From Deltaproteobacteria bacterium (lineage in GTDB: Bacteria; BMS3Abin14), in contig JAADHJ010000009.1 of NCBI GenBank assembly GCA_013151915.1, forward strand, positions 1 through 64,000: a stretch of DNA of 64,000 nt, in the 5' to 3' direction. Shown here piece after piece: positions 13,898 through 62,507 of the stretch. The position numbers and the translations under genes were made by a program. Each line of letters starts with the position of its first letter. Positions within the stretch are counted from its first letter, which is position 1. The notes below the pieces were generated by a model. It saw nothing but the letters and a program-made list of their open reading frames with translations, ran no database searches and was not told where the DNA came from.

Positions 13898-14052
13898 TGA
13901 TAGGGTCGTAAAAAGTCCATTAATGGCTTTTTACTCCACGGAAAGCGAAAAGTGTCATTTTCACTTTCCTTGCAAATCAACAACTTGCGATGCAAGTCAT
14001 TGATTTGGGCGCCCCAAGTGGGCGCCTTGATGACTTTTTGTGAAGTCATCAA
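13898..14052 (-). mobile_element. MITE-like element, full-length copy A
   Basis: A non-coding element of 155 bp, in inverse orientation to copy B at 17416-17572. Its ends are TTGATAGGGTCGTAAAAAGT and the complement of TTGATGACTTTTTGTGA-type sequence, that is imperfect terminal inverted repeats. Inside are three hairpins: GTAAAAAG/CTTTTTAC, GAAAGCGAAAA/TTTTCACTTTC and ATCAACAACTTGC/GCAAGTCATTGAT. TA flanks both ends (CAATA then TTGAT; ATCAA then TATTG). It lies between the sensor gene and the feo operon; the remaining 14053-14221 holds no gene I can see. Confidence 0.75.
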
Positions 14053-17405: not shown

Positions 17406-17415
17406 GCATGAAAGG

Positions 17416-17572
17416 TTGATGACTTCGTAAAAAGTCATCAACGCGTCCATTGAAGGGCGCCCAAATCAATGACTTGCAGCGCAAGTTGTTGATTTGGGAG
17501 GAAAGTGAAAATGACACTTTTCGCTTTCCGTGGAGTAAAAAGCCATGGATGGACTTTTTACGACCCTATCAA
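17416..17572 (+). mobile_element. MITE-like element, full-length copy B (reference)
   Basis: The best-preserved copy. It begins TTGATGACTTCGTAAAAAGT and ends, read from the other strand, TTGATAGGGTCGTAAAAAGT; these two ends match at 17 of 20 positions. Inside are the hairpins CCCAAATCAATGACTTGC/GCAAGTTGTTGATTTGGG and GAAAGTGAAAA/TTTTCGCTTTC, then GTAAAAAG/CTTTTTAC. AAAGGTTGAT occurs exactly at both borders (17411-17420 and 17571-17580), overlapping the termini and suggesting target duplication. It carries no ORF and lies between the feo operon and the ARMT1-like gene. Confidence 0.8.
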
Positions 17573-17601
17573 AGGTTGATAGACTTCGGAGGGAGAGGTA
17601 A

Positions 17602-25547: not shown

Positions 25548-25675
25548 GTTCAAGGTTCAACGTTCAAGGTGATAAAGAACGTCCAACGTCCAACGTCAAA
25601 GTTCAAACGTCAAGGGTAAAAAATCCAATGTCCAATGTCCAACGTCAAGCTTCAAACATCAAACTTCAAGGATCC
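25548..25675. repeat. Short-period GTTCAAC/GTCCAAC repeat tract
   Basis: An irregular array of 6-8 bp units such as GTTCAACGTTCAAGG, GTCCAACGTCCAACGTC, GTTCAAACGTCAAGG, CCAATGTCCAATGTCCAAC and CTTCAAACATCAAACTTCAA. The same style recurs at 27719-27740, 43472-43500 and 61940-61983. It runs into the predicted N-terminus of the DHH protein. Confidence 0.75.
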
Positions 25676-26668
25676 AACGGGGTAAAGCAGCCCTGTACCC
25701 GGATTGTAACCCACGAGGACCTTGACGGCGTAGTCAGTGCCGCCATTGTCTCCCTGGCCACGGAGATAAAGCAATTCTGGTTTACAGGTCCGATGTCCAT
25801 CCAGAACGGGGAAACTCCGACCACCGAGACGGACATCGTCTGCGACCTCCCTTGCCCCATCCGATTTGGAATGTGGTTCGATCACCATGTCGGGAATCTG
25901 GCTGACGTTGAACTGAGGGGCCTGGACCCTGAAAAGATTCCGGGGAAGTTCTCCCCGGATCCTTCCTGTTCGAGGGTAGTGCTGGAATATTATCGAGGGC
26001 GTGTCGATTTTCCGCCGTTCATCGAAAAGACGGTTGCCAGGACCGACAGGGTGGACTCTTTCGACTATCAAACCATGGAAGAATGGCGGGAACCGCTTCC
26101 CGAAAAGCTTCTGGCCGATTCCATCCGTGCGGCGTTTCGAGCCCCGCGGGCGATGCACGGTTATCTCGAAAAGGTCGTGCTTTTGCTGCGTCAAGATTCC
26201 ATGGAGAAAGCATTGTCGGACCCCGAGGTTTCCAATCTCGTGAAAACCTTTGGCGACATGGAGCGGCGAAGCCTCGAGCTTGTGGAACAGGACGCCTTTT
26301 TTCATCCCGACGACGCAAGCCGGGAGGTTGTCATCGTGGATCTGACCCGCCACAATCGCAAACCGGATTTTATCCGGAACACGGCCTTTATCCGTTATCC
26401 TGACGCGTTGGCTGTTCTACTGGTCCAGAACCGGTTTTTAAGGGGGAGGAAGACCAACGATCTGACCTTTTCCATGTCACTGTCCTTCCTGATGAACGTC
26501 CGTGAGCACCGCAGGGACATCGGGGAGATCATGAGGTCGCTGAACATGGGGGATGGACACCCGGGCGCTGGGGGAGGCATGTTGTCCTGCGGAAGCAAGG
26601 ATGAGATGATAAAGGTAAAGGCGGCCACCCTGAACTCCATTATCAGGATGTGGCAGGAGATGGCGTAA
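25628..26668 (+). CDS. DHH-family phosphoesterase
   Basis: A manganese-dependent phosphohydrolase of the DHH superfamily (nanoRNase, pApA or cyclic-dinucleotide phosphodiesterase type). Motif I is VTHEDLDGVV (about 28-36), motif III MWFDHHVGN (Asp85-His86-His87), and the DHHA1-like C-terminal glycine motif NMGDGHPGAGGGML. An Asp-containing DRVDSFDY lies between. The first about 20 residues (MSNVQRQASNIKLQGSNG) are translated from the short-period repeat tract, so they are probably not ancestral; no in-frame start with a better ribosome site exists before motif I. The gyrI-like gene follows 23 nt downstream. Confidence 0.85.
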   Translation: MSNVQRQASNIKLQGSNGVKQPCTRIVTHEDLDGVVSAAIVSLATEIKQFWFTGPMSIQNGETPTTETDIVCDLPCPIRFGMWFDHHVGNLADVELRGLDPEKIPGKFSPDPSCSRVVLEYYRGRVDFPPFIEKTVARTDRVDSFDYQTMEEWREPLPEKLLADSIRAAFRAPRAMHGYLEKVVLLLRQDSMEKALSDPEVSNLVKTFGDMERRSLELVEQDAFFHPDDASREVVIVDLTRHNRKPDFIRNTAFIRYPDALAVLLVQNRFLRGRKTNDLTFSMSLSFLMNVREHRRDIGEIMRSLNMGDGHPGAGGGMLSCGSKDEMIKVKAATLNSIIRMWQEMA

Positions 26669-27960: not shown

Positions 27961-28062
27961 TGATGACTTCGCAAGAAGTTATCCACGAGGAAAGTGGAAA
28001 TGACACTTTTCGCTTTCCGTAGAGTAAAAAGCCATGGATGGACTTTTTACGACTCTATCAAT
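27961..28062 (+). mobile_element. MITE-like element, copy C (internally deleted)
   Basis: Starts TGATGACTTCGCAAGAAGTT and ends GACTTTTTACGACTCTATCA in the same orientation as copy B. The GAAAGTGGAAA/TTTTCGCTTTC and GTAAAAAG/CTTTTTAC hairpins are kept, but the large central hairpin is missing. It ends 9 nt before tRNA-His. ATTA flanks both ends. Confidence 0.75.
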
Positions 28063-41746: not shown

Positions 41747-41806
41747 TGATGACTTCGCAAGAAGTCATCAACGCGCCCATTGAAGGACTTTTTACGATCC
41801 TATCAA
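41747..41806 (+). mobile_element. MITE-like element, copy D (both ends, centre deleted)
   Basis: TGATGACTTCGCAAGAAGTC at the left end and GGACTTTTTACGATCCTATC at the right, separated by only about 20 bp; all inner hairpins are gone. AAACCTGA occurs at both borders (41742-41749 and 41805-41812). It separates the HD gene from the mscS gene. Confidence 0.75.
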
Positions 41807-43471: not shown

Positions 43472-43567
43472 ACGTTCAACGTTCCAAGTTTAAGGTTCCA
43501 CGTTTCCTTTCAGCTCCGCCCGGGATTGCCGCGTCACTTTCGTCTCCCTCGATGCTCCTCGCAATGA
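43472..43567. repeat. GTTCAAC-type tract plus GC-rich dispersed repeat, copy 2
   Basis: 43472-43500 carries GTTCAACGTTCCAAGTTTAAG-type units; 43509-43567 is the second copy of the dispersed repeat at 423-481 (57 of 59 identical by eye), and CAAAGCGATCCCATC follows as in copy 1. Non-coding. Confidence 0.7.
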
Positions 43568-43642
43568 AACATTGGCGTCATCGCGTTTGTCCCGCAAAGC
43601 GATCCCATCTTTTTGTTCCCCGCGTCCGCTTTTTCCCTCTCT

Positions 43643-43700
43643 GGACACTGGACACTGGACACTGGACTCTGGACTCTGGACATTGGACTCTGGACTCTTA
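43643..43700. repeat. GGACACT/GGACTCT short-period tandem tract
   Basis: Eight near-identical 7-bp units: GGACACT three times, then GGACTCT, GGACTCT, GGACATT, GGACTCT, GGACTCT. The same unit occurs at 50891-50930 and on the other strand at 27756-27768. The YkgJ gene stop falls at its end. Confidence 0.85.
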
Positions 43701-44240
43701 GAATACCAGTGGTCTTTGCGAGATCTCGCAGTGAGGGTAGTTGGGACGAAACCGTTCGCAGGCCTCCGGCCGGTAACCGGAACCGCAGTGATAGATGGAG
43801 CAGAAAACGCTGGATTTCGATCCGTTGGAAAAAAACATGGGGCACATCCTGAGGCGGACACCCTCATAATACCATCCCTCGTAACGTTGATGGTTTCGCT
43901 GTTCATTTCCGGCCGGTTGAACGAAATAACGGGTCAGGGAGTCATACCTGGTCCAGAAGTTATATTCGTGGGCCTCAAAAGGACCGGGGTTAAGTTCCGC
44001 GCAGCAGGAACCGCACCTTCGACAGTTTGTCGGGCCGGGGAACCCAGCCAAAGAGGAAAGCCGTTTCAAGTCAACCTTGGAGTCGATGAAACGGTAGGCT
44101 TCGAAGAGAGCGAAAAGGGGTCCCATGGAGGAGGCGGAGTGACACTCAAGAATCCATGCCCATGGAATCCACCTGCTGCGGGCAACGCTCCCCATCCGCT
44201 TGGGAAGCACGGCCGCAAAAGCCCGGTTGCGCTCACCCAA
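43698..44240 (-). CDS. YkgJ-type cysteine-cluster (zinc/iron-chelating) protein
   Basis: 180 residues. The metal site is CRRCGSCC (about 73-80), with later CPMFF, SVFCSIYHC, EACERF and YPHC, the spaced-cysteine pattern of the YkgJ family, which probably holds zinc or an Fe-S cluster. The N-terminal 60 residues contain no recognised domain. TTG start, with AGGAG six bases upstream. The 3' end abuts the 7-bp tandem tract. Function unknown in general. Confidence 0.75.
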   Translation of the reverse strand: MGERNRAFAAVLPKRMGSVARSRWIPWAWILECHSASSMGPLFALFEAYRFIDSKVDLKRLSSLAGFPGPTNCRRCGSCCAELNPGPFEAHEYNFWTRYDSLTRYFVQPAGNEQRNHQRYEGWYYEGVRLRMCPMFFSNGSKSSVFCSIYHCGSGYRPEACERFRPNYPHCEISQRPLVF

Positions 44241-47432: not shown

Positions 47433-47568
47433 TGACAGGGCCGTAAAAAGTCCATTCATGGCTTTTTATTCCATGGAAAGCGAAAAGTGTCATTTTCACT
47501 TTCCTCACAAATCTTTGATTTGCGCGCCCCTAAGTGGACGCGTGGATGATTTCTTGCGAAGTCATCCA
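47432..47568 (-). mobile_element. MITE-like element, copy E, inside an operon
   Basis: Orientation as copy A: starts TTGACAGGGCCGTAAAAAGT and ends GCGAAGTCATCC. Contains GAAAGCGAAAA/TTTTCACTTTC and a shortened central hairpin. CCATT flanks both ends. It separates the two permease genes of one transcription unit and touches both: the second permease's 5' end lies on it and the first permease's stop is one base away. Confidence 0.75.
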
Positions 47569-50747: not shown

Positions 50748-50890
50748 CTGTGGTCCGTGTATCTTTTGCGTCCCCTCCGGGGGTACAAGGGATGTTCGGG
50801 CCACTTTTTTTGTTCATTCGGTGGGGTACAACGCGAGAAAGAAAGTCCAGAGTCCATTTGCCCCCCCCGTCTCCGTGTCCGCTTTTCCCA

Positions 50891-50930
50891 CTGGACTTTC
50901 GACTCTGGACTCTGGACTCTGGACTCTGGA
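50891..50930. repeat. GGACTCT short-period tandem tract
   Basis: CTGGACTTTCGACTCTGGAC then further GACTCTG units, five near-perfect 7-bp repeats. Same family as 43643-43700. It separates the satP terminator from the end of the SsuC-like gene. Confidence 0.8.
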
Positions 50931-50949
50931 ACCCCCGTGGCTGAAAGCC

Positions 50950-52442: not shown

Positions 52443-52493
52443 CTGCTTATCGCCTCATAAATAATCCATGATGCACGCTCCGTGCACACCCTG

Positions 52494-52521
52494 CTTGATG
52501 GACTTTTTGCGAAGTCATCAG
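52494..52521 (-). mobile_element. MITE-like element, copy F (one end only)
   Basis: TTGATGGACTTTTTGCGAAG followed by TCATCAGC corresponds to one terminal hairpin of copy A. The rest is missing. It abuts the stop of the kinase gene. Confidence 0.55.
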
Positions 52522-61983: not shown

Positions 61984-62096
61984 TGGCCCTTCCGCTTGTT
62001 GACAAGAGAGGCCGGTTTTGATAACAAATCCTGTTCCTGCATCGTGTTTTACGTGCTGTCGTAATCCTGCGGGCGTAAGGCCGTAGTATTCAATTA

Positions 62097-62135
62097 AGTA
62101 AAAAGCCATGGGTGGATTTTTACGACCTTGTCAAA
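62097..62135 (+). mobile_element. MITE-like element, copy G (one end only)
   Basis: AAGTAAAAAGCCATGGGTGG then ATTTTTACGACCTTGTCAA corresponds to the right end of copy B. The rest is missing. It ends 17 nt before the rplU start. Confidence 0.65.
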
Positions 62136-62151: not shown

Positions 62152-62463
62152 ATGTATGCCGTTATCGAAACGGGCGGTAAACAGTATCGCGTCAACGAGG
62201 GTGATGTCGTCCGGATAGAGAAACTTGCCGCCGATGTCGGATCCGAGGTATCGTTTGACAGAATTCTTATGGTTGGTGAGGGAAGCGATCTTAAGGTTGG
62301 TACACCCCTCGTGGATGGAGCGAAGGTCAGGGCCAAAATTGTTGAGCAGGATCGCCACAGGAAGATCATCGTTTTTAAAATGAAGCGGCGCAAAAACTAT
62401 CGTCGTAAGCAGGGCCACAGACAGGATTACACCGGCGTCCGCATTGAGAAAATCGAAATTTGA
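62152..62463 (+). CDS. rplU: 50S ribosomal protein L21
   Basis: 103 residues beginning [20 protein letters not shown], with [20 protein letters not shown] and the terminal VRIEKIEI typical of L21. GGAGG lies upstream of the ATG. Its TGA stop is the first codon of MITE copy H. Confidence 0.96.
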
Positions 62464-62507
62464 TGACTTCGTAAAAAGTCACGAATGGACTTTTTATGGC
62501 CCTATCG
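62461..62507 (+). mobile_element. MITE-like element, copy H between rplU and rpmA
   Basis: Both termini with the centre deleted: TGATGACTTCGTAAAAAGTC at the left and GACTTTTTATGGCCCTATC at the right, 47 bp in all. The rplU stop codon is its first TGA. It can form GACTTCGTAAAAAGTC as a hairpin. It sits inside a ribosomal-protein operon. Confidence 0.7.

Follow-up and report, generated by a model that had tools for sequence, protein, structure and literature searches.

A short five-hairpin repeat family, very probably a non-autonomous MITE-type element, in intergenic regions of one bacterial phylum

Copies of the element in the window

The window, the whole 64-kb stretch of DNA analysed here, carries several copies of a short structured repeat. 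Copies A, B, C, D, E, G, and H were recovered by an HMM built from full copies, and their coordinates, with the parts of copy B, are as follows:

13898..14051, minus strand: full-length copy A, with ATAT as its duplicated target
17412..17416: AAGGT, the target duplication on the left of copy B
17417..17571, plus strand: copy B, full-length 155 bp form with five hairpins
17417..17442, plus strand: hairpin 1 of copy B, the left terminal repeat, TGATGACTTCGTAAAAAGTCATCA
17535..17571, plus strand: hairpin 5 of copy B and the right terminal repeat, GTAAAAAGCCAT..ATGGACTTTTTACGACCCTATCA
17572..17576: AAGGT, the target duplication on the right of copy B
27961..28060, plus strand: copy C, hairpins 2-3 deleted, target duplication ATTA
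41747..41805, plus strand: copy D, a 59 bp form with both ends, duplicated target AACC
47433..47564, minus strand: copy E, of the 133 bp subfamily (hairpin 3 reduced), with ATGG as its probable target duplication
62091..62133, plus strand: copy G, 5'-truncated, right end alone kept
62461..62507, plus strand: copy H, 47 bp both-ended mini form, target duplication not clear

Copy B represents the full-length form of 155 bp, with boundaries 5'-TGATGACTTCG...CGACCCTATCA-3' and terminal inverted repeats TGATGACTTCGYAAAAAGTC and TGATAGGGTCGYAAAAAGTC. The repeats are imperfect across their first 7-8 bases, which differ between the ends, while the inner core TCGYAAAAAGTC is common to both. The full form folds into five hairpins in succession (fold z-score -9.6), where up to four internal hairpins had been proposed from the sequence. 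A short subfamily of 133 bp has a reduced hairpin 3 (CAAATCGAAGATTTG); copy E belongs to it and has lost the first bases of its left end. Both ends are retained in the internally deleted forms, which measure 100, 59, and about 45 bp. At 155 bp and 133 bp, the two longer forms are of MITE size (<500 bp) and carry no transposase gene, and we saw no ATG-initiated ORF in copy B, as had been claimed.

A sequence-only reading of this DNA had listed eight copies with shared, imperfectly inverted ends. The end motifs were found at the places given, with 6 + 6 matches (at most 3 mismatches) against 0 expected in shuffles, and seven of the eight places carry the repeat, G in truncated form. The both-ended forms without a centre recognised at D and H are also real, at 59 bp and 47 bp. 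The eighth place, F (52494), belongs to a second, related family: one end hairpin similar to that of the element is followed by TCCATCAAGCAGGGTGTGC... of the other family.

This second short repeat family, at 52443-52521 on the minus strand of the window, has similar end hairpins and another centre. Its ends are TGATGGACTCGYAAAAAGTCCATCA ... GAGACTTTTTACGAGGTTATCA, and further copies lie at C6:31782-31890 and C16:48518 of the same genome (G000). Other repeats were also observed. Arrays of 7 bp units (CTGGACA / CTGGACT, AACGTCC) occur near intergenic regions at window positions 43625-43708, 50875-50944, and 25578-25689, and TGGACTC or GTTCAAC runs resembling them adjoin several element copies. 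A 60 bp direct repeat, TTTCAGCTCCGCCCGGGATTGCCGCGTCACT..., is present at 422-481 and 43508-43567, 97% identical and 43 kb apart, and also adjoins an element copy in L179/L180.

Boundaries, distribution and empty sites

We compared the left and right flanks of 103 non-redundant copies position by position. The flanks agreed at k=1-4 (z = 3.3, 6.9, 7.8, and 4.4 against shuffled flanks), and agreement was absent at k=0 and k=5. The duplicated target is 4 bp long with the A/T-leaning consensus ANNT, and about ten copies have 5 bp. Because only four adjacent positions are duplicated, the limits of the element are TGATGAC to CTATCA, with tips 5'-TG...CA-3' and a 4 bp duplication. Longer registers also matched beyond chance, with 22 perfect 6-base registers against 1.7 in shuffles and 10 near-perfect 7-base registers against 1.1. 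We considered a 6-7 bp duplication with an AANNTT target and rejected it, since position-wise shuffling left the middle four bases alone duplicated. In some copies the duplication is imperfect or absent. Some both-ended 45-59 bp forms have target duplications of their own, a few of them perfect, as in the ATGTTT register at g0_C6_104627 and the AAACCT register at copy D. The direct repeats previously noticed at the borders in the window are therefore real, with their length corrected to 4-5 bp (A, ATAT; B, AAGGT; D, AACC; E, ATGG), and the duplication of copy C, ATTA, had been overlooked.

The source genome, G000 (2.27 Mb, 60 contigs), gave 58 BLAST matches from about 295 first-look candidates. 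The HMM made 69 hits in 455 kb of G000 stretches, 39 of them full length, and when this 20% sample is scaled up the genome would hold about 345 copies and fragments, including about 195 full-length ones. The element makes up about 1.7% of the sampled G000 sequence. Across the genome this amounts to about one per 6.6 kb, where one per 8 kb had been put forward for the window. The genome-wide search that had been suggested revealed hundreds of further copies, and their alignment showed recurrent limits and duplications well above shuffled flanks.

Among 12 genomes of the phylum, all of one family, the element is present in 11 (G000 and 10 of 11 others), at 73-95% identity. Copy numbers range from 2 candidates (G003) to about 300 (G000, G005), and the closed genome G002 of the same phylum has no element. 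Outside the phylum, 2 of 49 other genomes gave marginal matches only (E ~1e-4), and no copies were found in phages, plasmids, or viral contigs. Head-to-tail pairs recur, the first copy left-truncated and the second full length (G000 C33:6758-6956, C33:16287-16477, C6:140510-140691, and C16:90919-91146; L195, L204, and L210).

Up to 28.6 kb, the window shares synteny with contig C41 of the same-genus genome G001 (~84% identity), which has neither copy B nor copy C. Copy C lies about 12 bp upstream of tRNA-His, and the syntenic site is without a copy. Copy A lies within a stretch that is otherwise missing too in G001. The results of the wider comparison were similar: where the flanks of a G000 copy could be aligned within the G001 stretches, the G001 site was almost always empty. 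One older fragment common to both genomes is the clear exception, and one further G001 site, that at G000 C16:22006, was scored as empty but actually has a weak match below the cut-off. Several G000 insertions separate genes merely 0-25 bp apart in G001, and at one site three tandem copies stand between genes that abut in G001. Divergence of the intergenic flanks keeps the empty-site junctions from being placed to the exact base.

Fold and orientation of the copies

We assessed the five helices in 31 copies from many genomes. Paired states filled 98.2% of cells, compared with 96.0% in shuffled and 38-56% in slid controls, and double-change cells numbered 28 against 6.2 in shuffles. One control of this test keeps the relatedness of the copies, yet different pairs had changed in different genomes. 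In 65 copies, the non-Watson-Crick states of the five helices on one strand were then divided by frequency. Recurrent states (in at least 4 copies) comprised 11 G.U and 1 A.C, whereas rare states comprised 10 G.U and 22 A.C (Fisher p = 0.0005). The rare changes are mostly private mutations acquired after insertion, indicating that the constraint acts on propagating copies. This points to selection on the fold in the course of propagation rather than once a copy has inserted. G.T is better tolerated than A.C in DNA as well, and the G.U bias therefore fits RNA and single-stranded DNA alike. The one-stranded fold would matter while the element propagates, in either of these forms.

At the left edge, complementarity to the inner arm of hairpin 1 exceeds the chance level at bases k=3-5 (z = 3.1, 5.4, and 3.1). 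These are the first base of the element and two adjacent target bases, k=3-4 lying within the duplication. The folded strand, as RNA or single-stranded DNA, might take part in mobility, with the fold preserved solely in the line of copies that propagate and the inner arm helping to pick the target by pairing, a proposal that we regard as unlikely. Replication-dependent correction of quasi-palindromes after insertion is the likelier cause of the complementarity. We also observed copies whose left hairpin is lengthened by several base pairs into the flanking target (G000 C33:20153, C16:22019, L015:1367, and g1_C41:78972), giving the impression that the target had served as template for the inner arm or that the arm had been matched to it.

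The orientation of the copies was counted in the G000 stretches, where genes were called by a simple codon-score model. Of the clusters lying between genes of the same direction, 36 were sense and 6 antisense. The strand of a copy follows the strand of the genes and not that of the contig (22:2 between plus-strand pairs and 5:19 between minus-strand pairs, p = 1e-6). Sense-to-antisense counts were 30:12 in further loci, 17:6 in other genera, and 9:6 in G001 alone. Many copies begin only a few bases from the stop codon of the gene upstream. Either selection against antisense copies or an insertion bias could produce the sense excess. Sense placement in operons may reflect tolerance, in that a compact transcribed element between cistrons would do little harm.

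Mobilisation, alternative explanations and known analogues

Hundreds of further copies, recurrent boundaries, target duplications, deleted forms, and empty sites bear out the MITE reading first made from the window. The element is very probably a non-autonomous MITE-type DNA transposable element, moved in trans by a transposase or integrase whose staggered cut spans 4 (sometimes 5) bp. We looked for its mobiliser, and the search for a transposase with matching terminal repeats that had been suggested yielded none in the DNA sampled. Searches for widely spaced pairs of ends, covering about 0.95 Mb of G000 and G001, brought up neither an autonomous element nor a transposase bounded by them. In G000, the surroundings of all exact right ends were swept and no element enclosing a gene came to light, and an end-pattern search in G002, G003, G008, and G009 found no autonomous element. 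DDE_Tnp_1 had no match in G000, no IS with matching ends was found around DDE_Tnp_1 genes, and the few rve genes were not flanked by the ends of the element. A matching IS would be expected to bear TGATNNNNTCGYAAAAAGTC ends. An autonomous IS with the same ends is not essential to the MITE class, as parents are often lost. The combination of TG...CA tips and a 4-5 bp duplication would fit rve-type integrases such as relatives of IS3, IS481, or IS21. An IS-encoded enzyme, probably of the DDE/rve kind, would act on both ends, and its own element may have been lost or lie outside the sampled DNA.

The sequence-only reading had offered as its alternative a REP-like repeat moved by a RAYT, that is, a REP/REPIN-type palindrome mobilised by a Y1_Tnp tyrosine transposase. 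High copy number, palindromes, intergenic location, and some tandem arrays would all suit such a repeat, and G000 has two intact RAYT-like Y1_Tnp genes (L031:1382-2481 and L032:992-1955, on C37 and C44). Both genes, however, are flanked by inverted repeats of their own, GGGGACGTAGTTAAGTTG and TGGGGTCAAAGCTCAGAT, which are unrelated to the element. G002 has two Y1_Tnp genes and no element, whereas the element occurs without any Y1_Tnp match in G007, G008, G010, and G011. Moreover, the element makes a 4-5 bp target duplication, while single-strand Y1 transposition (IS200/IS605) makes none and REPs leave none. Since the presence of RAYT-type genes does not follow that of the element and REPs lack target duplications, this explanation is contradicted, and we give it next to no likelihood. 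An IS200/IS605-derived element was likewise rejected, terminal inverted repeats and a target duplication both being present here.

A retrotransposed, SINE-like structured RNA, whose sense transcript is reverse-transcribed at a nicked target, would account for the maintained one-strand fold and for the sense orientation. It would also suit the truncations, as copies with the right end intact and the left truncated exceed the reverse (41 vs 16 overall; 20 vs 10 in unbiased stretches). However, a duplication was found at 3 of 41 truncated edges (2.5 expected by shuffling) but at 41 of 92 full copies (10.6 expected), so truncation looks later than insertion. Target-primed reverse transcription, which the 5' truncation had prompted us to consider, was therefore unsupported. 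The duplication is also fixed at 4-5 bp and the mini forms retain both terminal repeats, and a SINE-like origin is very improbable. Conservation of the fold across genera and intercistronic sense placement could instead reflect a vertically inherited, non-mobile host RNA motif with a cis-regulatory or stabilising role. We think this hardly likely, as insertion sites are not common to two species of one genus, target duplications are present, and no Rfam match overlaps the copies. The rare private mutations, which show no G.U preference, further point to little constraint after insertion.

The MITE-type element is a new family of a known type, set apart from bcr1, BOX, and Chunjie by published descriptions rather than consensus sequences. 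In character, bcr1 and BOX appear closest, with ERIC and Chunjie also among the nearest analogues. ERIC is known from Enterobacteriaceae and Vibrionaceae and inserts at TA, unlike the 4-5 bp duplication here. REP/REPIN sequences with RAYT are likewise high-copy palindromic repeats, and the element differs from them in its target duplications, its five hairpins, and its lack of association with RAYT genes. ERIC is palindromic and intergenic, with an effect on transcripts that depends on orientation (PMC3049150, PMC10969869). The bcr1 element, one of the group A repeats of the Bacillus cereus group, measures 147-167 bp (PMC2267715 Table 3) and is MITE-like with a conserved fold, often lying within UTRs or intergenic regions of operons (PMC3446304). 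The two are alike in being multicopy and intergenic, in size and conserved fold, and in that no mobilising enzyme has been identified for either. Compared by description, they differ in that bcr1 mobility is tied to TTTAT motifs (PMC6542083), whereas an ANNT target and TG...CA tips are found here. BOX, RUP, and SPRITE of Streptococcus pneumoniae are small, non-autonomous, and highly structured, and are co-transcribed with operons (PMC3049150). BOX shares the extensive secondary structure but is built of modular A, B, and C boxes, with terminal repeats like those of ISSpn2, while no matching IS was found here. The Chunjie MITE of Geobacter uraniireducens is multicopy and varies in size, its terminal and direct repeats are conserved, and one insertion lies in an operon (PMC10969869). 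It is longer, at 178-235 bp against 155 bp.

The element is unusual chiefly in the fold kept on one strand and in its mostly sense placement within operons. These results indicate a well-supported MITE family over most of the genera examined in one bacterial phylum, many of its insertions being younger than the split of two species in one genus. The element accounts for the untranslated hairpin clusters that interrupt operons of this lineage. The contrast between recurrent G.U and rare A.C states separates selfish structure from host function, a question still open for bcr1, BOX, and ERIC.
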